The translations under genes and the position numbers were made by a program. Source: Antedon mediterranea (Eukaryota > Echinodermata > Crinoidea > Comatulida > Antedonidae). From it: a stretch of 64,000 bases of DNA. Shown in pieces: positions 21,831-59,982 of the stretch. How positions within the stretch are numbered: the stretch's first letter is position 1; every line of letters begins with the position of its first letter. Under the pieces are notes generated by a model. It was not told the DNA's origin. It saw only the letters and a program-made list of their open reading frames with translations, and ran no database searches. The DNA is taken from assembly GCF_964355755.1 (NCBI RefSeq), contig NC_092674.1, forward strand, positions 21,044,001-21,108,000. Reading direction: 5' to 3'.

Positions 21831-23167
21831 TCAAGAATGAATTTTACATGTGATCAATGGAGTCAATGTGTGAACATATAACTTCACTTAAGTGTGTGTG
21901 CCTAAAGTAAGCCACACGCAGATGCCCAATGGTTGATCATCTGCATACATTTGTTATAAAATTTCAAAGGATTGTATTGAGTTTTAAAACCAAAATGTGT
22001 TACAAAGCCTAGTCCAAAGCTGTACAGTAAATAACGAGAAAATTGTTATGGAATTGTTAATAGCATAATATAGTCCTTTCCATTAAAATAAATAGATATG
22101 TATTTTTAGATTTAAACATTTATTTTGTTTATTCGAATTCCAAATTGCACCAAATACCAAAAGCAAATAATTATAGTCAATATTTAGTTTAAAACGTTTT
22201 ATTTGATATTCGTGAATAAATATTTATAGTTTTGTATCTGTACAGTACATTCATTGTAATTATTATCATTAAGTTCCTCCTGCTTATAGAAAACCCCTCC
22301 CCATTAGTCCACTTTGCACGCAAAGTCCAATTTTTCCTGAACCAAATGTTTGTTCATTTAATCCAATGTGCATTCCACAATGTATTTGTATAAATAATTT
22401 TAGACATTACTATTAAAATAATTATATAATAATTAAAATAAATACAACAACCAATATTTATCAGCTGCAAATGTTTCTTTATGGTACTTAACACTGAAAA
22501 AACAACACAAACAAAGAACACATACCAATATACAGTAATTGTACAGACTATAGATCAAATATAGTCTAGATTAGCTGACTTGTTTAACATTATATGGTAT
22601 GTGTTTTATATTTTCCTTAGAATAATCTATTATAAGATTTAGCCAGTTACATGTATGTTTTCCGTGATATTTTATAAATGATGCCGAAGTCATTACGCTT
22701 ACATATTTTTTGTTCTAATAAATTAATATGAGCATTATTATTCCAACAATCCTGGGTTTGTCCTTCTGTACTTGGTACTCCATGTGTTTGACGTTACCCA
22801 TGTTATCATTAGTGTTGTCATAAGTGGCTAATTATGTATACGTACTATATCTACTGTACAAATGAAAATGTAAAAATAGTATTTGTACCTATTATGTACT
22901 TTGATAAACCATATACTTGCCCGATTTAAATGTTAAATTTTTTTTTTTCAAATGGTATTTTTGCACACAAAAAAATTGTCCAATTAGAAGCAATAATGTA
23001 AACATTTTAACTGTATCTGATTATAAACGTGTATACATTTAATCCTAATTATGAATATTAATAACAAGACAGTTATAAATAAAATATTTGTTAATGAATT
23101 AGTATTACAGTTTCAGTATTTAGCTGTTTTTATATAAAGCATATTGGTTTATAATAAGTAATTAAAC

Positions 23168-23975
23168 AGGTGTATAGTGCACCTGGGAGTAAACATGGAC
23201 TTACATGTGTATATGTGTACCTGGGAGTAAAGATGGACTCACAGGTGTATATGTGTACCTGGGAGTAAACATGGACTCATAGGTGTTTATATGTACCTGG
23301 GAGTAAACATGAAATCACAGGTGTGTAGTGTACCTGGGAGTAAACATGGACTTGCATCTGTATATGTGTACCTGGGAGTACACATGGACTCAATGTGTAT
23401 AGTGTACCTGGGAGTAAACATGGACTCACATGAGTAAACATGGACTCACATGTGTATATGTGTACCTGGGAGTAAACATATACTTACATGTGTATATGTG
23501 CACCTGGAAGTAAACATGGAATCACAGGTGTATATGTGTACCTGGGAGTAAAGATGGACTAACATGTGTATATGTGTACCTGGCAGTAAAGATAGACTCA
23601 CAAGTGTATATGGGTACCTTGGAGTAAACATGGACTCATAGGTGTATATGTTATACCTGGGAGTAAACATGGAATCACAAATGTATATGTGCACCTGGAA
23701 GTAAACATGGACTCACAGGTGTATAATGTAGCTGGGAGTAAACATAGACATACAGGTCTAATGTGTACCTGGGAGTAAACATGGACTCACAGGTGTATAT
23801 GGGAGTAAACATTGACTCCTAGGTGTATATGTGTACCTGGGAGTAAACATGGACTCACAGGTGTATATGTGTACCTGGGAGTAAACATGGACATACAGGT
23901 CTAATGTGTACCTGGGAGTAAATATTGACTCACGTGTGTACACTGCATGTGCACCTGGGGTAAACATGGAGCTGT
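23168..23975. repeat. 38-bp minisatellite
   Basis: About 20 tandem imperfect units built on GTACCTGGGAGTAAACATGG followed by ACTCACAGGTGTATATGT. Units vary by single substitutions and a few deletions. It lies between GRTP1 and FMR1. The open frames seen on its minus strand are generated by the repeat. Confidence 0.95.
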
Positions 23976-29095: not shown

Positions 29096-32000
29096 TTATG
29101 CATCGCCATTTACCATTTTTACCGTTTCTTCCACCTGTTGAGAATTAGTTTCTTTTGGTTTGGCCTTACTATGTTTGTATTCTTCAGTGGTGACCCCATT
29201 CACCCTCTCTCCATTTGATTCTTTCTGCTTTCTATCTTGCCTAGGCGGACGAGGATCTCTCTGTTGCCGAGGTCCATTTGAAATGGTTTTACCGGACGGT
29301 GGTTTGCTGTTATCATTCACTGCATCACTTGATTCCTCGTTTCTCTTACTATCCTGGGATGGCTTTTTAAAAGAGTCTCTACGGGGTGGCCTATTATCAC
29401 GAGGTGGCCTATCACCGCGGGGTGGTCTGTCATCGCGGGGGGGTCTATCATCACGGGGTGGCCTATCATCGTGAGGTGGCCTGTCATCGCGGGGTGGCCT
29501 GTCATCGCGGGGTGGCCTGTCATCGCGGGGTGGCCTGTCATCGCGGGGTGGCCTATCATCGCGGGGTGGCCTATCATTGCGGGGTGGCCTATCATTGCGG
29601 GGTGGTCTTTCATTGCGAGGTGGCCTGTCGTCACGGGGTGGCCTATCGTCACGGGGTGGCCTATCATCACGATTCGACCTATCATCACGTTTAGCATTTC
29701 CATCTTCACGTTTAAACGAGCTACCACTCCTCCTGTCGCGATTATTAAAGTTCTTGTTCTTATTATCATCTTTGGAAGCTTCAGTCTCCTCACGACTGTT
29801 AGGTGGCGCCACTCCATTAGTTTCTTCCTTTACTTCTTGCATAGTATTATTATTCCGGTTTCTATTACTATTACTTCTCTTAGGCTTTCTCTTTCTTCTG
29901 CCTCTAGAATTATCTGAGAGAAATTATTTTAAAAATATGATAATGGAAATGACAAAATGAAATTCAACCTGCATAATTATAACGAAATTGGTTTTTGAAT
30001 ATCATGTGACCCACAATCTACAATCTGCAAAAGCTCTGTCTATACTATCAAATGTTATGTGACAACAAAATGTAATGTGCCCATATATGGACATGACGAC
30101 ATCATATCACTACCATATTTGGGCACATCACACATTTTTTGTCAAACTAGCTGTCATTGAATGCTCGTAAGTATACAGTGCGAGAGTGATGTGAAACTTG
30201 TAACTGTTTTTGTTTGTTATTTATCTGTTTTTGTATATCTCAGAGCAAACACAATTTCTAAGTATATTTTATTATGCAGATGACAATAAATGGAAGTCAT
30301 TTTCCACTGATGAATGAATGAATGAATATAGTGAAGACAGAAAGTGTGTTATACAAATAAAAGAGCTTTACCATCAGTATTTTTAGCATCCTCATCAGCT
30401 GTTCTATCTTCCAGTATTGTTTCTTCATCAGCATACTGTCGACGATTCTCAGTATAGCTATTGGCATCATCGTCAGTTTCTGATGGTAGTACCCTTTCAT
30501 TCCCACCTTACAAATAGGAGAAAACAAATAAGAAAGGTGTAACAACAATTAACCCTTTAAAGACGTTGCCCATATCCCATACGGGGTAATTTACTGTCCC
30601 AGGACGCGATGCCTGTATACATACAGGTTGACTTTTTAATCACTGAATCGCACTTTTTGAGCATTTGAACTTTTTTTTCGAAAAGCCAAAACATTTCACA
30701 TAACAATAAAACCAACAATTGAAGAAAGTTACAGTCATTAAAATTTAATTTGCTTTTTTCCTAAACCTATCAAAAATACCTGATTTAGCCTCAGTCACTT
30801 GGGGTAGAAACCTCATGTCTTCAAAGGGTTAAATTGAATACATGCTTAGGGATCATGTCAAAATTATTCTACTGCAGTTATTGCAGAACTATTTTTTAAA
30901 TCAATCAATCAATCTAACTAAATCAATATGATTTTAGTTAGTGTGTTTCAATGTATCTGTTTAAAAAAAACAATATAAAAATGTAGTTCAATGTTGCGAT
31001 GTACGCAAAGCAAAAAACGCTGTTGAATAATCTACGACACTGTGCTTATGTTGTCGGTTCCGAGTTGTGACACAGTTTATGTTCATATTGTACTTTGCAT
31101 CAATATGTTGCAGGCATACGTCCTTTTGTTGCATCCTAGTGGGAACCAAGCATGAATAGATTACCACCTTACAAACAGACGAAAACAAAATTTGATTCAA
31201 GCATTTAAAATGTAATGCATAGTTGTATCATAAATTGTCTACCTGAATTGTATCTTGTACCAGATATCAAAGGATTTCTCCTGTTTCCTCTTCCCCTCCC
31301 TCGCCCTCTTCCTCCTCTACCCCTTGCCATGCCAACACCTCTTCCACTATATGATGATGAATCACTTTGGTTCACCTGGTCTGCCCAATCTCCTGTTCGG
31401 GACATTCCAGAATCCCTCTCAGAACCGCTATACGCTGAATCTAACGGGAACCAATTCACATTACAAGTTGTATCCAAAATCCATGCAATTATAATGCTAA
31501 TACAGTTAGAACCCCTCCCTCGGGACACCTCTATATATTTTGTTTTTGTCGTCGTATCTGTTTCTGTATATTGCAACAGTGTAGTGGGTGTGTTGTTACA
31601 GGAGATACTAAATGTACAAATTATATAGAAAGAACAGGATTTTGAATCAGTATTCATTAATACCAGATGTCCTCAAAAAAGTATATTAAACTGGTCATAT
31701 ATGTTCTGTTCCTGTATACATCGCAAAAATTGGAAAAAATAAATAAATTTTAAGTAAATATTTTGTGCATACCGTATCTATCATTATTATATCGTCCACC
31801 TCTGGAACCACGCCCTCTACGGCCACCTCTGTTGCCTCCTCTGCTCGATGTACTATCTTCTGAAAAATCTGAACCATACCCACGGTCTCCTTTTCTTTCT
31901 CTGGGAGGGGGAAAATACGGTCCAGGGATGTAGACAGCACCAAGACTTCTTAGCTGCTCGTCAATCTGTAGTTTTTCTAATCGAATTTGTTCTACTTCCT

Positions 32001-35000
32001 GTATTAAAAATGTTAAAGTGTTAATAAACAGTACTTCAAAAATGAACAACACATGCAAATCCAGATGCGTTGTTACTTGGGTTTCTGTATGGATATAAGC
32101 TGTATATTTGCTGTTAGTATGGGCTAAAATGCACGAGGCCCTTACCACTTCATAGATGTTCTCCCCTAAGGGCCACATCATGTCAGTGTTGCCAATTCAG
32201 GCACTCTCTTATCTGTCTATGACAGTGGCTGTGTGAGAAGTACACTGGAGTAACCCTCTACTCAACTAGGTTCTTTAAAGTAAACACAAGCATTTGTGTA
32301 CACTGGACCTATGGTTTAAAATATAGTCCTTGTTCTACCACAAGAACCATTGATGATATTATGTAAAGGTATTAGAGTTCCACAGTCTAAACCACTCAGC
32401 CAGCCACTCACTCACCATACTATATGATACCGTATGTTTGCTAAACATAAAAGGAAGAGGGTCTGGTCTCCCTAATGTCATGTTGGGTAAAATGTTACAA
32501 TATGTTACAAATTGCAAATGACAATGGCCCTGTTTCTGCTGCCAACTAAATACCGTATATTATACGGTATTTTTTGAATACCGTATATATACGGTATATT
32601 TTTGGCAGCAGAAACTGCGCTCATAAAAAATATACCGTATTTTGTATACCATATTTTCCCCACAAAATTTGTGGATAAAATACGGTATTTACAAATTAAT
32701 ACCGTATTTTTTGTACCCGTTTCTGCTGCCAATAAAAAATACCGTATTTTTTTTTTACATGACAAAAGGTCACCATTCGTGTTTTTATTTTCTGTCGCTG
32801 TTAGCTGCTTTACACACATGTATAGATATATTCGGCGAAAATGTGGAGCGAATACGTCACAGTTTTACTAAATAAATGTGTGTGGGGAAGCTAAAATGTC
32901 TGACCAACTAAAAGGTAATAAAAGGGACAACCACATTTATAAAGACATTTCTAAAAAAATAAAGCAGGAGTATGGAATAAACTTGTCTCCAAAGCAAGTA
33001 AACTCAAAGCTGAAGAGCCTGCGAAAGCAGTACAACATTGCAAAATACAATAACTCGGGGAGGGAACGAATTAATTGTCCCCATTACGATGTTTTCTGTG
33101 CTCTCAACATCTCTATCACTAGGGCTAGGCTGTTGAAAGTGAGACGTAAAACTTCCTTTATTGCGACTTTTAATTATCGATCAAATAAATGAATGGCAAT
33201 TTGGGTAAAAAAGATGAAATTTAACACGACCACCCAAGAAGTATTGTTAGCAGAAACGGGGTACTAAAAAATACGGTATAAAAAATACCGTATTTTATAC
33301 CGTATTTTTATACCGTATTTTGAGCAGTTGCAGCAGAAACAGGCCCAATGTGGCCTGACCATTCATTTTATGAAAAATATAATGTTACATTATGTCATGG
33401 GTAGTATACTATTATAAATCTACTTTTTTTAAAATTACTTATAATTAATTCTATGCATCAAATCGTAAGAACAAAAAATGTACAAACCTTAAGATGGCTA
33501 ACATGATATTCTAACAGCACTTTGGCATTGCTAATATTTTCCTTAGTTCCTACAAACAAGAATGGTACTGTACTGCAATTGTCAGTACTCCCACGTTCAT
33601 TGTCTCCTTCTATCTTGATGCGTACAACCCCAGACTTGTCAACAATTTCTTGTATAACTCGTCCATTCCTTCCAATTACTTTACCTAAAAAGTACAACCA
33701 CACATAAATGAACAAGATGATACTTCATACTCGTACTGTAGATCAGAACAGTACAAGTTATACAGTTGAATATAAAAATAATCATGAACAATGTATATAC
33801 TACTTATTGGTGATCTAGGGATGTATGCACACCAGGTTTAATAGTAATGTGGAGTTTGTAATTTCAATCGCACCAGAGAATTACTTTGCAGTATTCCCAT
33901 TGAGCATCTAACCATCAGTATTTAGTGAGTGAGTGGCCGAGCGGTTAAGACAGTGGAACCGTAATCACGTAGCCATAACATCGGCAGAGGTTCGAGGCTC
34001 ACTCACTCCATGGTTCTGGTGGTAGAACGAGTCTTCTCGGATAAGGACTATAAACCGTAGGTCCAGTGTACACAACTTGCTCGTGTGCACTTTAAAGAAC
34101 CTAGTACATCTTTCGAGACGAGTAGGGGGTTACCCCGGTGTATTAGTACATTACAGCCACTGATCATCAACTGGGCCCTCTGGGAGATCAGTCTTTGACT
34201 GAAGAGGTCACCCAGTATAAAGATAAAACAAACAAACAGTATGAGCTTAGTGGTCTACAGATGTTCTTTGCAGTATTCCAAATGTTCTAAGCCATCAGTA
34301 TACCTACAGAGAAGGGCATCTAACCATCAGCATGAGCTTCGTGATCTAGCAGAATTCATGACATGCTATACTGATCTGTGGTTCGATTCCAAACCAAGAA
34401 TCATTATTTTGTTGAAATAAAAAGTGGATATTCATTTCTCGTTAATATTAAACGGAAAAGAAAACATTCGTGTAGTGACTACTGGTGTTATCAAATCAAT
34501 GTTAAACTGTATTCTTTACCTATAAGATCTCTTGGTACTTCAAATTTATCTTCAATAAATTCTAACTTTGCTCTAGCAACTTGGACAGCTTCTTCCGTCT
34601 ATGAAGTTGGGAAAATGTTAATAATATTAATTCTTTAAAGTAATATTTATACTGTACGATACAAAATGTGAAAGAAATTGGAAGTGAACCTCTATATGTA
34701 CACTCTAAATGTACAGGTATGTTCATCAAGGTATATTCTTTACCACCTATACCTATCATGGTCTTTATTTGGAAGTGCTATTACTGGTTTATCAAAGTTT
34801 TTGCATACTATTCTCATCATGGTCCTTATTTGGAAGTGCTTACTGTTATTAAGGGCACATAGAGGTAAACTGACATCACCATATATTCTAAAGGTACAGG
34901 TAGGTTCATCAACATGTTTACAAACTATTCCCATCATGGTCCTTAATTGGAAGTGTTTACTGTTATTAAGGGCACATAGAGGTAAACTTAAAGCACCATG

Positions 35001-41000: not shown

Positions 41001-44000
41001 CTGGCAGAACAGCATCTGTATTTGTGCAGAAGACACTACGGTCCACGTATAAAGAATAAATAAGATAAATAGCAAGAGAAGTTAAATGTGTTCCGCTCCT
41101 GGCAAGTCTGTGGTTTATGATGTTGTTGATTATTGTTATTATGAGATATAGAAAATAAATGAAATACCTACCTCTCCCTTCGCATCTTGTACCTTAGCAC
41201 TCCACCAACCACACGGTTCTCCTTCACAAGATCGAGAGTACACCTGTAAATAAAGTAACAATAGCAGCGACATGAAGATTAAGGAGTCTATTGTGTACTG
41301 TCCACATTTTCTAATTAATATTTTAAATAAAAATAACTTTACCTCAACTTCATCGTTGGCCTGAAGTTCACCAAAGTCATCAGTTCCTTCAGGCGGCATA
41401 CGGACATTCGAGAAGAGCACTTGACGTGGAGGAGTCCAACTTTATAAAAAAAACATAAAACTGTATGAGTATGGTATAAAATTATAGTATTTTGGATAAC
41501 AAAAACAGAATAATTCCATAGACTAAATTTGAGTGATAAAAATGTGAGTGACAGTTTCAACACACAAAGTGTGCCTATAGGTCTTTTATAGAGGTGTCCC
41601 ATGATTAGAGGTCTGTACTGTATAATTAAAAGTATATATTTCTCCTTTCCAGGGGAAAATGTCCCCTGAATTGTCTCCTGCAGGGAAAAATTTCATTTTA
41701 AAAATTTATTTAGCAATATTGCTAATCAAACTGATTTATGAGTCGAGAAACATAGTTTTGAATTGTATTTTTTTCTATGCTACACTGGCGAAATTATTCC
41801 CTGTCCTGAATAGAGATTTCCCTCCCCCGAATAGGGATTGCCCTCCCCCGAATAGGGATTGCCCTCCCCCCGAATAGGGATTGCCCTCCCCCCGAATAGG
41901 GATTGCCCTCCCCCCGAATAGGGATTGCCCTCCCCCCGAATAGGGATTGCCCTCCCCCCGAATAGGGATTGCCCTCCCCCCGAATAGGGATTGCCCTCCC
42001 CCCGAATAGGGATTGCCCTCCCCCCGAATAGGGATTGCCCTCCCCCCGAATAGGGATTGCCCTCCCCCCGAATAGGGATTGCCCTCCCCCCGAATAGGGA
42101 TTGCCCTCCCCCCGAATAGGGATTGCCCTCCCCCGAATAGGGATTGCCCTCCCCCGAATAGGGATTGCCCTCCCCCTGAATAGCGATTGCCCTCCCCTGA
42201 ATAGCGATTGCCCTCCCCCGAATAGGGATTGCCCTCCCCCCGAATAGGGATTGTCCTCCCCCAGAATAGGGATTGCCCTCCCCCAGTATAGGGATTACAT
42301 CTAAAAAAGAAAATGTTTTTTTTTTAATTACCAATACTTACTCATTTTCAAATGCTACAGTGACTTCCTCATCATGAATGTCACGAAGAAATCCCTGAAA
42401 AAAAAAGTTGAATCATTATTAATTCAGTAAATAAAATAACTTATTTTCAGGCCTTGTCTTTTGAAAATTATAGGTGTGCTACAAATTGCACTCCTCAATA
42501 CATTCAGGGCTGCTGTACTGTAGTGTGCTGTATATGTTGGTGTGTAGAAGTTTACCAAATTTAAGCATGTTGTAAATCGCACACCTCAAGGGCAGTTTAG
42601 GAGTGTGTTAGGTGAGTGATCGCACTCGACTCGCCTTAAAAGACAAGGCCTGTTATTTTATTAAGCTTTTATATCATTACCGTAGTTCCCCGGGTATAAT
42701 CCCACCCCCTTGCACGTGAAATTTGCCCGAATTTGGGAGGTGGGACTATACCCAGGGTTTCCCGGTGCATGAACTGAAAATGACAATATTTCTTCTGGCT
42801 ACGATTTAGGCTATCTAAAGCTATATTCCGATGTAGGCCTAGACATTAGACTGCCAGTGCCAGGTCATCTAGCTCTGTGCAAATCGCATGTTGTTGCATG
42901 TAACACGAACTACAGTACTGCTCTGGTCGGTATAGAGGGCGGGTTTTTTTTTTATGGTAATCAAGCATGCAGTATAGTGTAAACAAGGCATGCAGAATGT
43001 ACACGGCGAGCGAGTGTGCGGCGAATGCATGATGTGCAGAACGCGAAGATCGGGGCGATGATATTAAGGTTGTATTCAACTTTACGATGGCCAATGTTTG
43101 ATGAGTTTTAAGTCAACCGAATTCAGAGAAATTACTCTATTTTTTGGTGAGAATTTCTTTAAAACAAAATCAATGTCGGCCTAGCTAGCTAGGCCTACCT
43201 CTGTCCTAATGATAAATTATACACTGGGACTTTGCCCGGAGATATGCTTGCGTGCGAAGGTAATCGTAAAGTCGGGGGTGGGATTATACTCGAGGTGGGA
43301 TTATACCCGAGGAACTACGGTAATAGAAAGTCATATAAAGTTCGACAAAGCAATTTCAAAATATCTACATAGAAATCAAATTGAAATTAGGTGAATCTTC
43401 ACAATATTGTTTTCATAACAACAACATAATTATCTGAATTTACATTTGGACAGTTTGTCATTAAGTAAAACTTCAGCCATGAAATCAAATTAACATACTG
43501 TACACACGTATGTGCCTGTTGTTAATGAACTTTAAATGTTAGGATATTATGTGTATAAAACAAACATAACCCATTCCTAACCTAAGCACAAGTCTCACTA
43601 ATGAGGCTTCAAGTCAAAATCATAAGGTATATCATTACACACTAAGAGATCAAGTTGCCTTCCAGTCAAATTCCAATCATAGTTTTTAAAGAGGAAAATA
43701 GTCAACTATTAATTACTGTATGATGTTTGCATTGTGTATTATCATCTACATTATTGAAAATTCGGTAATATTTTGGCATGACTTTCCATATAATAAAATT
43801 CAAATTATTTTTTAAGGCGTCAAGATGGTTTAAATAAATTAGAGAAAAGTTACAGTAATATTAATAAGCCTCTAAAAAAATATAGTACATTTAGTCCTTT
43901 AAACAAGTTTATTTTCGACACTATTAGTATTATGCAATTGTCTGTCAAAATGTTGACACATGAAAATCAGAAATTAGAAGTTTATAATATTTACATTAAA

Positions 44001-47563: not shown

Positions 47564-48917
47564 TTAGGTTTTTCTAATGATAAAATGATGTAATTTCCTG
47601 CGAACTTTGATGTAGAAGACGTAAAAAAATGCTTTTCTAAAACTTTCATTTACTACAGATATATCAAAGGATTTACATATGAATTTAGATATAAATCCTA
47701 AACGACAAATATTTAAAAACAACGAAAGTGCAATATCCAAGATTATAAAAAAAAGGAAAAATATCCCTAACATAAACGGTACCATGCAGATAACATAAAC
47801 TGTGACTGTCACAAAAACTGTACAGAATATTTTTCTCTCAGATTTCAAACGTGGATCGGTCTTGAATGAATTAGGCACGGTATTGCGGGAGTTTCTAAAG
47901 AATAGAACATACACGACGAATACAAAACTGCAATAAGTTAACCACAATTTAGTGACAGGAGTAACGTTAAAAATCCAAATAATGTCATACAGTTTTTGGT
48001 AGCTTTTCTATTAAAGGCCAGGTGCGGGCAAAAAAATGCAGTTATTTCCTACTTCATCAACCGTATATGGAACATAAATTATTTCTGCAATGGGTACCAC
48101 AATTACCAAAACAAAGTACAACACAAATCTCAAGAAGAGATAACAGGTTTATTACATGTGTCAGTAATTTTTTATATTTATTTTTTATTTTCTTTAGGCC
48201 CTATTATATTGACAGTATAGTAACACAACACACATTTTAGATTGGGTCTATTATTTCGCTAAATTAATGTACTCTTCAATGATTTACAATAGCAAATGTA
48301 GGTTAAAAACCAAGAGGTCGACTATTATCTTCAAGATAGACATTCATCATAAATGGATTATTATTTTTTAATATATTCTACCATAATGTGTTTCACTGAA
48401 CTGGCGTAATGACCGAATGCAAACGTTTTAAATTCAATTTAAAACTCGTACATAAAAAATATCGGCGGTATCCTGTCGTCAAAGTGTCTTGTCGGCCAAT
48501 AGTCTGTCGGTCAAATGTCTGTCGGCCAAATGTCTGTCGGCTAATTGCCTGTCGGCTAAATGGTTTTCGGCGAAATGTCCTGTCGGCGAAATGTCTTGTC
48601 GGCGAAATGTCCGGTCGGCGAATAGTCCGGTCGGCGAATAGTCTGTCGGTCAGTGGTCTGTCGGCGAAATGGCGTTCGGCAAAACGTCCCGTCACCGTAT
48701 CAGCTACTGCCAAATTGGCTAGATACACGTACGCTGATGTATGTAGTTGTATCACTATTACGATGAATGTCGTCATGTTTCCGACAATTCTAAAGGCGAC
48801 CATAACAGGAATGATATTGTAACGTAAAATCATCTCCCAGTCACTAAAAAGGAACATGTCTATGCAGGAATCATATTCAGTTGTGAAATGTTGAACACCC
48901 GTATTCAGATGCATCAT
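47564..48917 (-). pseudogene. Rhodopsin-family GPCR pseudogene interrupted by a minisatellite
   Basis: Minus-strand pieces in receptor order: an N-terminus and TM1 to TM2 (VAFRIVGNMTTFIVIVIQLH, YVYLANLAVADT) at about 48720-48917; a minisatellite at 48478-48695; TM4 and extracellular loop 2 with its cysteine (VLYFVLVIVVPIAEIIYVPY..NNCIF) near 48040-48145, followed by two in-frame stops; then TM5, TM6 and TM7 (FVFVVYVLFF, IFCTVFVTVTVYVICMVPFM, VVNESFRKAFFY) to the stop at 47564. TM3 and the DRY motif are not found, and NPxxY is lost. The LAVAD motif and NESFRKAF end identify the rhodopsin family. The ligand class is not determinable. Splitting into real exons is less likely because of the stops and repeat. 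Confidence 0.75.
48478..48695. repeat. Minisatellite built on TGTCGGC(G/C)AAATGTC
   Basis: About twelve 15-18 bp units such as TGTCGGCCAAATGTC and GGTCGGCGAATAGTC. It begins directly after the TM2-coding segment of the GPCR relic and on the minus strand encodes Arg/Phe-rich nonsense (FADRxFRR). Confidence 0.9.
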
Positions 48918-49182
48918 AATGATGCATTGTTACCTGAAAGTGACATTTTCTTTGTTTTTTGAAAATATTTCCAAACTAAAAATCGGAAGTAAAATTGTGT
49001 TTCTAATTAATGATACATGTAATCCCTGAGTGGACTGACTGGATCGCAATAAAGAATCGATGCGCTTCCTTTGTGTACGTACACAATTCTGAATTAATTC
49101 TTATTATAAAGATATATATCATCTTATACAAGAATGGGACATTAAAGAGGGCGCTCTAAAAGTATGGAGAGAGATTTGTATT

Positions 49183-51055: not shown

Positions 51056-52316
51056 ATAGATTAACATTATACAATACAAAATTTAATTTTGTGGTAGGCC
51101 GCATACTGCCGTTTATACAATAAAACAAGTGTAGGGCCTACTAAACTTGAATATATTGTACCACACTTTTCACACAATTTTCGTATAATATCATTTCATT
51201 TTGAAAACAATGATGAAAAGAACAAAATAGCACATCATACCGACAATCCTGATAATACTATTAGTATAGCTTAGTTCTGTGTTTTTTAAATCCTGTATAA
51301 CTTGTGTTATTTTTTATGTTTTGTACATAATTTAGTTTAAATCCCCTGTAAATAGGCCTGTTTCAAAAGTGTAGTTTCCGGCCAAATAAACTGTGTAGGC
51401 CTAATTATATTTTCTTTACAATTTCCATCACATTCAGGAGAATGCATGGAGTATAATAGTTGATTATTAAAGTCGAACTCCAAAAATCTTACAAATATTA
51501 TATGTGGATTGGTGTTTCTGGCGGACAGTTTAAACACCGCTCATTAGAACACCTTGTTGACATTTATGTTTTGCGCCCTTCTTTCACAAAACCAAAATCC
51601 CAGAGACCCGCCACTGAATCTTCAATACGTTACGTCTTTCTAATTCATCAGTCAATATTGTACTCTCTGGAAAACAGATTCACGCACTTGCTTGTGTAGT
51701 GTAATGTGATGTATGCATTTCATTTATTTTTCTCGGAAGATGTTTTTTGCCAACCTCTAACTTCACGGAAAACAATCGATTTTTCTTTTCTGAAACATAC
51801 TTGCAACGTAGATTTGATGGTTCCTAAATAGAAAAATGCAAAACATTATCATCGTCATAATTATTGTTATCGCCACTATTTTCTGTGGTAAAATCTTTAA
51901 ATTCCAAAATAAGGGCGACAACTTTGTCTGCAGTAAAATGTCTTATTAATTAATAGAGCCCCTAATGATGCTATTAGGTAAAACCTAAACCTAAATCTTT
52001 TCAGTATAACATTCATTCTGTGGAATTTCGCTCACCATTCCACGCCCCTACCACAAAATCTTACATTCGCTTATCGTTGAAAATTAAATTGCATAAAATG
52101 TCCATTAGAATTATATTTTTAAATAAAATCACATTTACCGTTATTGAACAACTTGACCGAGAACCATGTTTTAAAAACGTATTAGGAATGTACATATTAT
52201 GATTTATATTGTTTACGATTTATCTACAAAGTGTGTTAATTACTATAGAAATTTTCGCGATTTTCCAGACTTGTCTACATCATTGTTTGTTGTTGAAATA
52301 ATAGCTTCATTTGTTC
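51056..52316. other. Intergenic, 3' of lectin gene A
   Basis: AT-rich sequence without a supported gene or array. The short frames present have no recognisable domain. Confidence 0.55.
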
Positions 52317-54363
52317 TTATAAATACTTGTAATTGTATCTACTTGTTACACTCGTTTTGGAATCCAGCGTTGGCGTTACGTATTTTACGCTCGTTAGCGG
52401 CTCAACCGTTGGCGTTACGTCTTTTACGCTCGTGAGCGGCTCAACCGTTGGCGTTACGTATTTTACGCTCGTTAGCGGCTCAACCGTTGGTGTTACGTCT
52501 TTTACGCTCGTGAGCAGCTCAGCCGTTGGTGTTACGCCCGTGAACAGCTTCAATGTTGGTGTTACTTCTATTGCATTCGGTATTGTCTCTATTGAATCTG
52601 TTTAGAAAAAAAAAATATTTATGTAGAATAATTATCGTATCTGTTGTGCGCGGCGGAAGTGTAGTGAAATTCTACTGTTACGGCTGCAGTACCCGAAGCT
52701 CAATAGGCAAGTTAGTGATGTGGAGGTGTTCGAGTCCCACAAGAATCACTTTGTGCATCATTGATCATTCAGACACTTAGATAACTATCTGACACAAAGT
52801 CCGCCGATACTGTTATAAACAAACTAAACATAATTTTTAAAACAATTTAGTGTACTTGTTGCTTTTGGCCATATCAATATATAAATCAAAGGGCAAATAA
52901 TAAATGGATGGGTGTTGAAAAAAAAAAATCAAAATAAATATGCATAATATAGGCAAATAATAAATACGATATCATGAGATCATATTTGCTGGACTCTCTT
53001 GATATAGTTTTGCCGACGACTTTAGATAAATAAGTAAACAAGCTTTACCTTTTTCACAAACCGTATATATAGAAATTGACAAAAGATCTAAGCAGATGAC
53101 GTCAATCCACTCTCCTGTTACGCAGCTATAGATTACACAGTTCTCATTAATGAACAAATAATTATCAGGCTGACCACTTTGCCAGTCTAGAATTAGGTTA
53201 AAAATATTAATGTTGGTATTAAAAAAACAATGCCGTGTCGGTTTTTTTGTGTATGTATTTATCAATGATTTTATGTATATAGACTTGCACTGATGAAGGG
53301 TTAGTGTTGCCCGAAAGCTCTGCTAACTTTTCTGGCTGTTTTATATTATCGTTTTGATTTAGTTTTTCGCTTTCTTGGTATCTCCATTTTGAGATCCAAT
53401 CACCACCATAGCATTGTCATTTTTTCAGTAATTTTCCTTGGGATTTATATATATATATTTATTGTTAAAAAGAGAAAAACAGTTCTATAGATTATAAAAC
53501 ATAAATTTGGTTAATTAAATGTATATATAAACGAAATAATATATGTAGAAAATATTTATAAGAACTAACAGGTTTTGAAAATATATTAAAAAAGGATATG
53601 TATAAATATCACAAAAATTATGGTAAGTAATGATACTGGATAAAGAAATGATTAAAACAACAAAATCATGTATGTAAACACATAACAAAGACACAATGTT
53701 AGAAAAAGTATGTGTAAATTACTATTATTTATATGAAAAGTTACAGAAATAAAAGTTGGACGAACCCTACAACAAAAAAACAATACTGTATCAATGCGCT
53801 GTGGACTTAAGATGTTACACTTTTCAACTACGCTTCTCCCTTTATAATTGGTTCCTATTATCAACGCAACGCATCACAAGAGACAGTTTAGGATGATCCA
53901 TCGCTTGTGATTAATTAACTCGCTTAAGTTACGCTTATTATATCCTTGCGATATTCACGGTACTATGTTTTGTGTATACAGAACTTATGGGTTATTAGTC
54001 CTTATCCGACTAGACTCTACCACTAGAACTATGGAGCGAGTGATCCTCGAAGCCTTGCTATAAGTTCAATTATAGGCCTATTATTTGAAACGGTACTATA
54101 CATAGACCTACTTATATAGTTGGTAGATTCTCCTGTAACCCAAACAAACGTATCTTCCACGGCTTTGTCATTCAATCCAATCCAAAAATTCCGACAAGTT
54201 CTGATGCTGCCAACGAAATCATTTTCCTCTTGCGATGAAATAGTGACTAAATGAGCGTCTAAAGTGTTACAGTATATCTCAGCTTTATCCCATGATGTTT
54301 GGTAGTCGAATGATTTGTAACAACTACTTTCAAACAAACTCCACGAAGGCTCACACACACTCG
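52317..54363 (-). CDS. C-type lectin A with mucin-like Thr/Pro tail (first exon not found)
   Basis: Three phase-1 exons, 54112-54363, 53049-53186 and 52317-52597, encode a C-type lectin-like domain and a repeat tail. The domain starts CEPSWSLFESSCYKSF and has the landmarks CNTLDAHLVTISSQEENDFV, FWIGLNDKAVEDTFVW, NWQSGQPDNY and VCEKG. QPD suggests galactose-type specificity, but the usual WND calcium site reads WID. The last exon encodes about five 13-residue units (DVTPTVEPLTSVK) and ends in a polar tail (TSRYNYKYL). All phases match gene B. No signal-peptide exon was identified between 54364 and 56387, so the gene is incomplete, uses a diverged exon, or borrows exon 1 of gene B. Secreted recognition lectins of this sort are common in invertebrate immunity; that role is inference. 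Confidence 0.8.
52345..52555 (-). repeat. 39-bp coding minisatellite of lectin A
   Basis: Five tandem 39-bp units, consensus GTTGGCGTTACGTCTTTTAC then GCTCGTGAGCGGCTCAACC on the plus strand, encoding DVTPTVEPLTSVK on the minus strand. The unit length matches the array in lectin B, and the two consensus units are clearly related. Confidence 0.9.
53280..53440 (+). mobile_element. Retroelement-like fragment (possible Penelope-type terminal region)
   Basis: The stretch with CTGATGAAGGGTTAGTGTTG, CCCGAAAGCTCTGC and TATTATCGTTTTGATTTAG followed by TTTCGCTTTCTTGGTATCTC looks like a dispersed repeat I associate with Penelope-like element termini. That attribution is from memory and uncertain. It is in intron 2 of lectin A. 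Confidence 0.3.
53988..54050 (-). mobile_element. SINE fragment
   Basis: Read on the minus strand, CACTCGCTCCATAGTTCTAG, TGGTAGAGTCTAGTCGGAT and AAGGACTAATAACCCATA match the central body of the SINE at 33930-34240. Only about 60 bp remain, between exons 2 and 3 of lectin A. Confidence 0.6.
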
Positions 54364-56387
54364 CTAAATTTACATAATTAAGAAGAGATCGGTTTTGAAA
54401 CATTCATGATTGTCATTCATAAATATTTTATGGCAAAATATATACATTTCTTTCAATAACATTATTTCAAGAACTTTTTTATTTCTTTAATTTTATTTCT
54501 GGCATTATTATTGTTATTGTTATTATTATTATTGTTTTATCGACCTACAATAAAAATGTAAAAAGAATGTGAAATGATTAGAGAAAGGAAAGTCCTTTGA
54601 CACTTATTAAACCAGGAAAAAAAGTGAATTTAACTCTTCCTTGATTAAACCAATCAAAATTGTAATCAATTTTAGGAATTACCGACTTATTACATTCTGT
54701 ATAGGCCTATTAAAATGTTCTTTATCTATATTATCTATCTCTTCCTTGAATAAACCAATCAAAATTGTAATCAATTTTAGGAATTACCGACTTACTACAT
54801 TCTGTATAGGCCTATTAAAATGTTCTTTATCTATTATTATCTATATGTCTATGTACTATTATTAGTGTATTTGTGTTATTTTAATTATTTAATTTTTCTA
54901 CAAATTTTAGTCTACATGATTATAGTTACTAACTGCGAAAATGTGCTTTTACTTACTTACTCCCACGCTGTTAGTTTCATTGTGGCATTAAAACTACTAA
55001 TAGGTAATGTGTTGTTCAAACCATTTGTCCTTTTGAACAAATGAAGCCAGCAAACATTCACCGTTAGATAACAATTTTATTATGATTATTTAATTTGTTC
55101 AGCAGCTTTTGTGTTTAAATTAAATTTCCAAATTACAATAAATTACAAAATTGAATTATGTGATAGGTCTATACAATTCAATACAAACTTTGATTGTAGT
55201 GCACCACATAATATCATTCATTGTACAGTTATTAAACAAATTTCCATTTTGTCTCTACTGAACAATTCAAAATTAAATCAATATTAAATTTATTAAAAAA
55301 CGATATTGAAGGAGGGATAAATCTCCTCCGCGTTATACCAAAATCATACTACCGTATCTTATTAAAACATACGTTGGTTACTACATTGATTTTTATCTTA
55401 AAAGCTATGTATATAAATTAATATTTTGTTTACAGTGGAGTTATTACTTTATTTCAAAGAATTTTCATAATTAACATTTCATAGATTCCTGTAAAAATAT
55501 AAATTTAATGACGTTTATTCTAAAACATCTACCCTTGTCTTGCATGTACTGTCCGTAATATATTTTCAGGAAAAAGCGTGTGTCATTAATATTCCGCAAG
55601 GGGTCAATTACGTAACTGTTTAACATCTACTTCCTGTTAAAGTCGAAACTCGCGGCCTACATGACATAAAAGAAAGTTTTATTATCTACCGACATAAAGA
55701 CAAGCAATACTGAAGAATGGGGTTGTTTAAATGAATGAACTGAATAACGAGTCGTATACTGTGAATCTTCATCAAAGATCTATTACTAAAAATGTAAATA
55801 CATTTATATCTTCCTTTCTTTCAGTAAAGATTTTGTCAAAATGTTGCTCACAAGACTTACTAGAACTTTCAAATTCTATACCTAATGAGATTCGAGATAT
55901 TTTTGTTAATGGTTCATATTATAAATTATTTTTACAGTAATTTAAATGTCAGAAAGAAGCTTTTTATAAAAAGAGGTTTTTGCTTTGACTACGCTGTTAA
56001 ACCTACTGGCGATATTTCTTTTTGCGTAGACTTGAATTTCAAAATGTTTTGTTTTTCTAACCTTTATCCTTTTCCACAAAAAAAACATTGTAGATAATAT
56101 ATTAATAAAAATTATTGAATTTGGTCAGCAACTTTTCATGTTTATATTTTTTTCCAAGCGTTTCTATTTATTAAATTATTTGATAGACCTATACAATTGA
56201 AATGTGTAATTCGTGTGTAATTATTGCACCATCATTTTTTGTATAACAAAAATCGCTTTTCTAGTCCATCAGTACCACACACTTCAATTGAAGCAAAACC
56301 GTCGACGACAATTAAATGAAATCAAGGATGAACATATCCAAATATTACAACATACGTTGACTACTTCCTTCGTGTAATTTGAAAAGA
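54364..56387. other. Interval between lectin genes A and B
   Basis: No exon was supported. It includes a 105-bp tandem duplication (54634-54843). Sequence at 55050-55230 resembles 56100-56260 (GTTCAGCAGCTTTT / GTCAGCAACTTTTC, ATAGGTCTATACAATTCAA / ATAGACCTATACAATTGAA), a trace of local duplication. A 69-residue plus-strand frame at 55731-55940 has no recognisable domain. Confidence 0.5.
54634..54843. repeat. Tandem duplication, 105-bp unit x2
   Basis: Two almost identical copies, each from CTCTTCCTTGA through AAACCAATCAAAATTGTAAT and ACATTCTGTATAGGCC to TTCTTTATCTAT. Differences are few, so the duplication is recent. Confidence 0.9.
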
Positions 56388-59300
56388 TTAGCATAAAAAA
56401 GTAATACTGATCACAAAAAATGGTATACTTGTTAAGATCGTGGTCGGCTCCATCGTTGGTGTTACGTCTATTACGGTCGTGGTCGGCGCCATCGTTGGTG
56501 TTACGTTTATTACGGTCTTTATGGTCGGCTCCATCGTTGGTGTTACGTCTATTACGGTCGTGTTCGGCTCCATCGTTGGTGTTACGTATGTTACGGTGGT
56601 GTTCGGCTCCATCGTTGGTGTTACGTCTATTACGGTCGTGGTCGGCTCCATCGTTGGTGTTACGTCTATTACGGTCGTGGTCGGCTCCATCGTTGGTGTT
56701 ACGTCTATTACGGTCATGGTCGGCTCCATCGTTGGTGTGACGTTTAACCTCGATGACATGTTTTCTGAATCTGTTAAAACAATGTCGTTTTGTAATGTAA
56801 TTAAAAAATGGAACGACGTAAATTGAATTGTGTTTTTCCCACAAAATAGTATGTAAAACTTGTTTCATAGAACTGAATTGTGTTTTATTCATGTTATAAT
56901 TTCCTATTTATGGCAATATATTTACCTATATATTCTAAATCACTTTAATTAAGGTTTTACCCATTTGAAAACAAAATGGTCATATTTAACAAAAATTCAA
57001 AATAAATATGCCTTATATAAAGTTGTTGCCTTCGGAAAAGAATTGTACTTTAGGCGTCAGGCGTTTTCCATTTTTGTGTTGGAAATGTTTGTATATGTAC
57101 TTGTGTTGCCAAATGTCTAGGAAATAAACAAAATTATTGCGTTACCTTTTTCACACACTGTATCTTTAATGTTCCACGAATGATTAGACGAACAACGCAA
57201 ATCAACCCACTGCCCATTTTGGCATTTATAGTGTACGCAGTCCTCTGCACTGGAATAATCATCAGGCTGATCACTTTGCCAGTCTAGAACGAAGCCAAAT
57301 AATATTAACATTTATATGTCTTATCACTGACCTTGTGAGACATATAGATGAGAAGTCGCAACGACAAGATTATCCGTCAAAACAGATTTTGAAACCCTCT
57401 CATTTAAGCAAGTAAGACAACGTCATAGTGTCCAATTATTGATCACTTAGGCCTACCAACCCCCGTACCAACCCTAACTACCATATTCCCCCCCCCCCAC
57501 ACTAAAAAAATAGGCATCGAGCTTCTCCCACGGACTATGCATTGTAATCGTCAACTGAAATAATTGATTTTCCCCGCAGAGAGCAAACTTAGCCTTGGGT
57601 CATCTTGGGCCAATTGTTTTAGACAATCCATGATCTTCCCCGTATCTGAAAAGCAACGAAGCGTGACATTTTTGTCAAGAATATAAATATTTGCTAAGGA
57701 GCAATAGATTAAATCTTTCAATTGTATCTAAATGGACAGCAAATAAATAATACTAATAATGAAAATATAATTATTAGAAACATCATTAGGTACTTAAAAA
57801 GTTGGTAGATTCTCCTGTAATCCAAACAAACGTATTTTCTACGGCTTTGTCATTCAATCCAATCCAAAAATCCTGACAAGTTTCGATGCTGTTGCCAACG
57901 AAATTATTTTCCTCTTGCGATGAAATAGTGACTAGATGCGCGTCTAAAGATTCACAATATTCTTCAGATTCGTCACATGTTGTGTTGGTGTCGAATAATT
58001 TATAACAACTACTTCCAAAAAAACTCCACGAAGGTTCACATAAACTTTCTGAACATATTATAATAAAGAAAACAGTATTGTCAATACACATAATAAATGT
58101 TAGTATTGTAATTCATAGTTTCAAATTATATACCAAATTTGTAAAAAAGTAGGCCTTAAACTACTTTAAATCATCAACATAGAAATGTCATGTTCAAGTT
58201 CTCCTCAGTGAAGACGTGACCGTCTAACTTGGAAATGAAAATATAGAGGACGCTAAAATGATAAACCAAACCATATATTAAACAACATTAAATAATGGCA
58301 TACTTTCTATTTTCTTACAGTATCTAACTGTATATCTAGAGTAGTATTATAAATGCACACATCGAGATATTGTTTTTATTTATCAAGAAAAAGTGGGAGA
58401 AATAGCATATTTCGTTAGAGTGTGGGAGATGACTCGACAGAATCTTTCAATCGGTAGCAGTGCACAGGAAGTAAAGAAGAGAAATATTTAAAGTACAATC
58501 TATCGTGCAGTATTGAAATTAACATTCAATCAATTAATTCAACTTTATTTCAGACAAACTGTCCATATGAAACACATAAAGTTTACAAAAACAACACATT
58601 ATTATGGCTATACTGATACTAGTTAACACACGTAAAAGTATACATGAGATTAAATATACAAAGGTTCTGTCCATTTTCTATTCAACATGTATTTTAATGC
58701 ATTTTAATGTTTTAAAGATGTATTTTCCCTCCTAAAAAATAATTCTTAAAACATGTTTAATATGCTATTTTAATATCCCATAATAGTTATCCACTTTCAC
58801 CAAAAATTGGATTAAAAACTAAATTTATTTACCTGAAAAAAGGTGTAATTTAAAGCAAGAAAACTGAAATTAGCTGCCAGGCAATGGGTTTTTGGTTGGG
58901 TTTAACCATTTATTTTGTCTTTTTCTAAGTGAAAGCATTATTTTTTTTTTCGTTTTTTTGTCTACGAAAGTGATTAGATGTACCTTGTACAAAGTTGAAA
59001 CAGTAAATACACATATGCTATTCGTATCCTTTTCCATCTTTCTCCTTACTACTCATTTGACTTTTTTTCACTCCACCATTGGTAATACCCTTCCTCTCCA
59101 CACAGATATCGATATCAACTTGGCTGCCTTTTAAAGCTCTCCATATTCTTACTCCTCAAGCTATCTATTACTTGCTAATATCACATCTAATGGGCGCAAC
59201 AGTCTTTTAGATTCAGTGCTCCAACTTTTTAAAATTCTCTTCCTTTAAATATTCGACTTGTTTCATCTTACTCTTCCGTCTAAATTTGGCTCAAGAACGA

Positions 59301-59982
59301 TCTTCTTGTTTCTTCCTTTTCCTCTTTTCTTCTGAGATGGCCAATTTAAATAATTTTTTTGTTCTAATTTTTTTTGCTTTATTTTATCTTTTTTTTATCT
59401 TTATAAATTAATTCTATTTATTATAATTTAATTTTTATAAATTATTATTTTTATTTATGTCTTTCTTGTATTATTTGTTTAGGGTCCCTAATGTTCAGCT
59501 TCGGCTGGATGGACCACCCTCGTAAAATATTGTTGAAAAAAAAACCAAAGCAAAAAAACAAAACAAAAATAAATATATTATATAATATTTAAAAAGCAAA
59601 CATGCTGGCAGTGCAATAATTGTGAAATCAGATACTAAAGTACAGTACTGTCTAATAATTTGAGAAATAACATAATGATGTCTTAATACATTTATAATAA
59701 TGGTATAGATAGAACTAATGCCAACGTATAATCGTCGGACATGTGTTGTTGACTATAATTTATCCTATTCAGATAACGTTGTTTGTATTGGCATTATTTT
59801 CTTTTTATTCTTCCTTACCCGATAATGTGTACCGGCCTACGAGTCTCCTAGATTCTATTCTTATTTGAAATTGAACGAAAATAAATATTAGCAAAGTTAA
59901 AAAAAACAACTAAAATAGGCTTACCTGTATTTGGTGGTTGCCTCATCACAAGTACGGTAATAAATACATGAATGTATAACAT
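56388..59982 (-). CDS. C-type lectin B with signal peptide and mucin-like Thr/Pro tail
   Basis: Four exons in matching phase: 59925-59982, 57794-58048, 57146-57283 and 56388-56770, giving about 277 residues. Exon 1 encodes a short signal peptide (MLYIHVFITVLVMRQPPNTG). The lectin domain runs from CEPSWSFFGSSCYKLF through CESLDAHLVTISSQEENNFV, FWIGLNDKAVENTFVW, NWQSDQPDDY, EDCVHYKCQNGQWVDLRC to VCEKG. The QPD motif is present, while WND reads WVD, so calcium-dependent sugar binding may be altered. The final exon encodes about eight 13-residue units (DVTPTMEPTTTVI), rich in O-glycosylation candidates, then a hydrophobic end (ILTSIPFFVISITFLC) that could serve as a GPI-attachment signal or short anchor. 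It is the duplicate of gene A, 2 kb downstream. A pathogen-recognition or adhesion role is inferred from the family. Confidence 0.88.
56437..56735 (-). repeat. 39-bp coding minisatellite of lectin B
   Basis: Eight units of mostly 39 bp, plus-strand consensus GTTGGTGTTACGTCTATTAC then GGTCGTGGTCGGCTCCATC; one unit has an extra codon. The frame that joins the lectin exons encodes VTPTMEPTTTVID-type repeats. The alternative minus frame (NRRNTNDGADHDR) is also open but does not match the splice phase. Confidence 0.92.
58722..58915 (-). mobile_element. TTGTCCCCC-family repeat, copy 3 (degraded)
   Basis: In reverse orientation it shares TTGCCTGGCAGCTAAT, TTTCAGGTAAATAAAT, CCAATTTTTGGTGAAAGT and AAAATAGCATATTAAA with copies 1 and 2. 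The termini are mutated. In intron 1 of lectin B. Confidence 0.55.
59030..59560 (+). mobile_element. Degenerate LINE 3' fragment
   Basis: With frame breaks, 59205-59330 reads like FSAPTF-NSLPLNIRLVSSYS and IWLKNDLLVSS, matching the C-terminal pattern of non-LTR reverse transcriptases seen at 39925-40075. The end TCGGCTGGATGGACCACCCT followed by CGTAAAATATTGTTGAAA resembles a LINE 3' terminus. In intron 1 of lectin B. Confidence 0.6.

Follow-up and report, generated by a model that had tools for sequence, protein, structure and literature searches.

In the window, by which we mean the whole 64,000-nucleotide stretch analysed here (G000:C5:21044001-21108000), two C-type lectin (CTLD) modules, A and B, are found on the minus strand, and each is joined to an exon of tandem repeats that encodes a putative stalk (Table 1). 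Each CTLD is split over two exons. In the spliced models of A and B, the two CTLD halves and the repeat exon are connected by GT-AG joins in phase 1 without any stop codon, and every internal exon has phase 1 at either side, which agrees well with the in-phase fusion of lectin and repeat exon proposed in the original prediction. Exon A1 was the best-scoring candidate in a scan for signal-peptide exons, and it resembles exon D1 of a paralogue described below (MLHVFITVLVLIHSANT). Exons A2 and B2 share 79% DNA identity, including approximately 80 bp of the upstream intron.

Table 1. Exons of CTLD modules A and B, in coordinates of the window
Exon	Position	Strand	Encoded feature
A1	59925..59982	-	Putative signal peptide MLYIHVFITVLVMRQPPNT; phase-1 donor CAG/GTAAGC
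A2	57794..58048	-	CTLD A, N-terminal half; phase 1 both sides
A3	57146..57283	-	CTLD A, C-terminal half; QPD, and WVD in place of WND
A4	56429..56770	-	Stalk A, 8 units x 39 bp (one of 42, last incomplete)
B2	54112..54363	-	CTLD B, N-terminal half
B3	53049..53186	-	CTLD B, C-terminal half; QPD, and WID in place of WND
B4	52343..52597	-	Stalk B, ~6 units x 39 bp (4 full)
B5	51720..51823	-	Terminal exon, tail (R)TIKSTLQVCFRKEKSIVFREVRGWQKTSSEKNK, then stop; beyond the interval of the original prediction

Tandem repeat analysis (TRF) of the window detected a 39-bp array in one exon of each module, at 52368-52536 (4.3 copies, score 282) and at 56438-56743 (7.8 copies, score 515). The identity at a lag of 39 bp is 0.72 for exon B4 and 0.79 for exon A4, while the maximum reached in 2,000 shuffles of each was 0.39; both arrays, which had been predicted, are therefore real and chance is excluded. 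The repeat unit of stalk A is VTPTMEPTTTVID (n=8), with an overall stalk composition of 33% Thr and 14% Pro, and that of stalk B is VTPTVEPLTSVK followed by D or Y (n=6, four of them full length). The KD and KY units of stalk B alternate, forming a 78-bp higher-order repeat or duplication. Of the predicted contrast of about five versus eight units with differing consensus, the eight units of A and the difference in consensus hold, while B has approximately six. The donors that end A4 (-1.6 bits) and B4 (a GT at 52343, -0.1 bits) are both in phase 1 and both weak, so that A perhaps reads through to the stop after ILTSIPFFVISITFLC. Exon B4 probably ends at its donor; position 52317, where module B had been taken to end, is a read-through stop, and an exon end at 52343, followed by exon B5, has better support.

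Other repeats are also present in the window. An ORF at 29096-29923 (-) contains a coding minisatellite of ~16 copies of an 18-bp unit encoding DDRPPR (array 29382-29668) and lies near a sequence at 31205-32196 (-) that by eye resembles an FMR1/FXR-type RGG C-terminus; it may belong to an RNA-binding protein. A GPCR-like frame (ANLAVADTVTG) at 48393-48929 (-) enters a 15-bp array at 48473-48668, and an exon may end at this minisatellite. Two further long minisatellites, of 38 bp (23166-23970, 21 copies) and 22 bp (41808-42296, 22.5 copies, 96% matches), are not tied to a gene.

When the genome (354 Mb, 18 contigs; that of an animal, judged from its genes) was searched with the repeat as a protein and as a DNA pattern, the only matches besides weak or single scattered ones were in the window and at G000:C5:30.713-30.714 Mb. 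This paralogous locus is located on the same contig, 9.6 Mb from the window, and carries two more CTLDs with stalk exons. Cassette C combines a CTLD with a 75-bp array of ~7 copies (unit TTPESTTPIVTTLVETTPLKTTALT) that encodes a stalk of 41% Thr. Cassette D combines a CTLD with ~30 units of 33 or 39 bp, and its model is complete and open, with five exons and 519 residues; the acceptor of its repeat exon is shifted by 9 nt with the phase kept. The best CTLD paralogues elsewhere in the genome, analysed with 1.5-kb flanks, possess the same intron splitting the CTLD, and no stalk of the A-D type was detected within those flanks.

CTLD exons are abundant in this genome, with at least 150 matches. 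At three of the loci (L018, L019 and L022; C1:39.60-39.67 Mb), the split CTLD genes are followed by exons that look HYR-like by eye. Loci L017 (C3:33304807) and L021 (C10:11917152) are on separate contigs, yet their CTLD exons 2 and 3 are almost the same in sequence, which suggests a recent dispersed duplication. Three CTLD matches with equal scores and frame lengths lie within 50 kb of one another (G000:C5:30518239, 30547179 and 30566959), ~0.13-0.18 Mb from C, and are likely the product of recent tandem amplification.

Comparison of the four cassettes shows that the heads of A and B have 75-77% DNA identity to that of C and little to that of D, whereas their stalks resemble that of D (up to 80%, for A over 300 bp) and not at all that of C. 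Similarity to D extends to the signal peptide of A and to the tail of B. Judged from these alignments, A and B are mosaics of C-like heads with a D-like stalk, signal peptide and tail, and the same alignments show that heads and stalks evolved separately. The A/D stalk homology ends 3 bp beyond the donor, meaning that conservation is confined to the exon.

Within single arrays the units are highly similar (identity 0.94 in A, 0.92 in B and 0.91 among the 39-bp units of D), and they are less so between arrays (A-B 0.78, A-D 0.83, B-D 0.74). Since unit identity is higher within arrays than between them, the arrays bear the signature of turnover, with homogenisation presumably by slippage or unequal exchange. 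The unit number also differs (B ~6, A 8, D ~30, C ~7), and the suggestion that stalk length is evolving by repeat turnover is thereby supported. In the 33-bp units of D, substitutions are not enriched at third positions, and strong purifying selection on this stalk is therefore not seen.

The four stalks are similar in chemistry, with Ser, Thr and Pro together making up about 0.50, 0.44, 0.56 and 0.48 of stalks A, B, C and D, respectively. They contain 18-41% Thr, 10-14% Pro and no Cys, and so have the Ser/Thr/Pro-rich tandem repeats that characterize a mucin-like domain. Only D matches the Pfam Mucin-like family (PF16058, E 4.7e-15), a match that composition by itself could give. N-glycosylation sequons (NxS/T, with no Pro next) number 20 in D, three in A and none in B or C. 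A comparison of units indicates how this may have arisen: NITLEPTSSVM corresponds to DVTPTLEPTSSVM minus two codons, with Asp-to-Asn and Val-to-Ile changes, and the two-codon loss together with Asp-to-Asn places a sequon in most of the 33-bp units of D. We infer from the units that the change ran in this direction and that the sequons are glycosylated. More tentatively, and with rather less than even confidence, we propose that phase-1 exons swap CTLD heads and glycan stalks between loci while minisatellite turnover resets the length and the glycosylation code of the stalk, a two-codon deletion with Asp-to-Asn having spread through D (DVTPTLEP to NITLEP with a sequon).

The heads are clearly recognizable. 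Pfam Lectin_C matched the spliced proteins A and B with E=1.8e-18 and 1e-17, and all four cassettes score far above the PF00059 cut-off of 22.6 bits (A 67.7, B 65.3, C 70.5, D 70.4). The top relatives of head A with solved structures are mannose-receptor-type proteins (LY75, PLA2R, MRC1 and MRC2). The QPD motif is present in A, B and C and is MPD in D, while the WND motif is intact in C and D. In CTLDs, WND contributes Asn and Asp as ligands, and its Asn is a ligand of both calcium and sugar. This Asn is lost in both A and B, each of which thus misses one such ligand, making canonical sugar binding by these heads doubtful; it may have been lost. The description of A and B as QPD-type heads is hence correct for the QPD motif itself, but the set of residues of a canonical Ca-dependent, galactose-type C-type lectin is incomplete, WND being changed to WVD in A and to WID in B. 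Among A, B and C, dN/dS of the heads is 0.31-0.55, indicating that they are under constraint, with no sign of positive selection over the whole domain.

Synonymous differences between A and B are fewer in exon 2 (9/48 sites) than in exon 3 (12.8/23.5; Fisher p=0.003), a contrast that is absent from the other two head pairs. Local gene conversion between A and B that affected the first half of the CTLD, with divergence of the ligand-binding half, would fit this pattern. The head tree is poorly resolved, with D on a long branch and 0 of 200 bootstrap trees uniting A-D alone; the unlike head of D may be due to replacement or to fast divergence.

For the terminal exon, the short frames that follow the four stalks were all compared with one another, which gave mostly noise and one standout pair: exon B5, starting with TIKSTLQVCFRKEK, and a counterpart after stalk D, starting with IIKSTLYVCLKQGK (D5, G000:C5:30714543-30714613). 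Tested alone against background frames after being picked in this way, the pair reached a local score of 41 versus a background maximum of 29, and B5 and D5 also share acceptor position and phase; the alignment indicates that they are homologous. As a genome-search query B5 matched only itself, its likeness to D5 being too weak for that search. No B5-like exon was found after stalk A or stalk C. The terminal exon contains no transmembrane segment; B5 encodes a short basic tail.

We consider it reasonably probable that these genes form a locally duplicated small family, in which a secreted CTLD head is carried on a repeat-built, glycosylated stalk that acts as an adjustable spacer. The protein would start with a signal peptide, followed by a CTLD head split over two phase-1 exons; next would come a stalk that is disordered and rich in Thr/Pro(/Ser), from a single phase-1 repeat exon, and last a basic tail that is short and contains Cys. 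Because they have phase 1 on both sides, head and stalk exons could be duplicated, swapped or skipped without loss of frame, and stalk units would be gained or lost through slippage or unequal exchange. The most likely ligand of the head is an extracellular glycan or protein, and the glycosylated stalk would most likely serve as the spacer within mucus, a matrix or body fluid; O-glycosylation of the stalk and an immune role, both raised in the original prediction, may be supposed.

How many genes are present depends on the ends of the modules. In the window, a signal-peptide exon was found only for A and a terminal exon only for B; the region between A4 and B2 gave no signal-peptide candidate for B, even at relaxed thresholds, with the same scan that returned the expected exon at the top rank in A, C and D. 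Because A has only the signal exon and B only the terminal exon, we favour one transcription unit for cassettes A and B, which would encode a two-headed protein or alternative isoforms with common ends. The two separate genes of the original prediction are unproven, with B lacking a signal-peptide exon and A a terminal exon like B5. Since the A4 donor is weak, there may instead be two genes. Translation of A would then run on to the stop beyond the donor and finish in a short hydrophobic C-terminus, which might be a GPI-anchor signal, and B would begin at an unrecognised or shared exon. Consistent with this, read-through of A4 gives ILTSIPFFVISITFLC and a stop, with an AATAAA ~210 nt further, and C and D each own a signal-peptide exon. 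However, the relaxed scan yielded none for B, and the A/B and A/D homology ends at the A4 donor, so that the hydrophobic tail is not conserved. On balance we find the two-gene reading somewhat unlikely.

Two other explanations concern the nature of the product. The spicule-matrix proteins SM50 and SM24 are secreted and combine a CTLD with C-terminal repeats, and the repeats of SM50 vary in number and sequence between species under concerted evolution (PMC4336488). A-D could similarly be biomineral matrix proteins, like sea-urchin SM50 and brittle-star SM24, with a repetitive low-complexity C-terminus occluded in the skeleton and no function as glycan receptors; the domain order is alike, and repeat turnover is common to both. 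In contrast, the SM50/SM24 tails are rich in Pro combined with Gln, Asn, Arg, Glu or Ala, are not Thr-rich and are described without N-glycosylation sequons (PMC4336488), while the stalks here lack that composition, being Thr/Ser-rich (Thr 18-41%, Pro 10-14%) with sequons in D, and we regard a matrix role as improbable. Still less probable is the reading in which the repeat exons do not code for protein but are minisatellites, or parts of a decaying pseudogene, beside CTLD exons. The arrays read open in several frames, as arrays with a unit divisible by three commonly do, and an open frame by itself is therefore little proof of coding; the donors are weak, and heads A and B are each missing one ligand. 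Against this, four arrays share exon position, phase and a similar composition even though the unit sequence of C is unrelated, the terminal exon is conserved between B5 and D5, and the dN/dS of heads A-C indicates constraint.

The secreted lectin with a repeat-built stalk that we prefer has several known counterparts, and an architecture of CTLD plus repeat region is already established from Rlecs, CLEC4M/L-SIGN, SM50 and Rosetteless. The Rlecs of the prawn Macrobrachium nipponense are multigene C-type lectins with 33/30-bp coding tandem repeats (1-9 copies) outside the CTLD, for which slippage and alternative splicing were proposed, and binding and clearance became stronger as the repeat number rose (PMC7536079). 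A-D likewise form a family of C-type lectins with coding repeats of varying number outside the CTLD; however, the prawn repeats are in exon 2 and those of A-D in the exon after the CTLD, and the available part of the prawn report describes neither a Thr-rich stalk nor a head/stalk mosaic (PMC7536079). The prawn study measured binding and immune effects, which for A-D would be predictions from sequence. CLEC4M/L-SIGN and DC-SIGN also have a lectin head on a repeat-made neck, of 23-residue repeats projecting the CTLD from the membrane, and the repeat number of CLEC4M is polymorphic (PMC2971551, PMC3261175). A-D differ in having 13-, 11- and 25-residue Thr/Pro/Ser units C-terminal of the CTLD, and no membrane anchor was found in them. 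Rosetteless and Rtls-like animal proteins have a signal peptide, two CTLDs and Ser/Thr-rich regions thought to be O-glycosylated (PMC4381721), but theirs are consecutive Ser/Thr runs instead of minisatellite units, and two CTLDs per protein are a possibility here. Across the four paralogues of this one genome, the head, the unit and length of the stalk, and the predicted type of glycan change almost independently of each other. This makes A-D a natural system in which to ask whether repeat-built stalks are tuned as spacers or are free to drift, and how minisatellites can bring about bulk gain or loss of glycosylation sites. Compared with all these precedents, A-D differ in three respects: a Thr/Pro stalk that is C-terminal and encoded by phase-1 exons, mosaics of heads and stalks between loci, and N-sequons gained via unit turnover.
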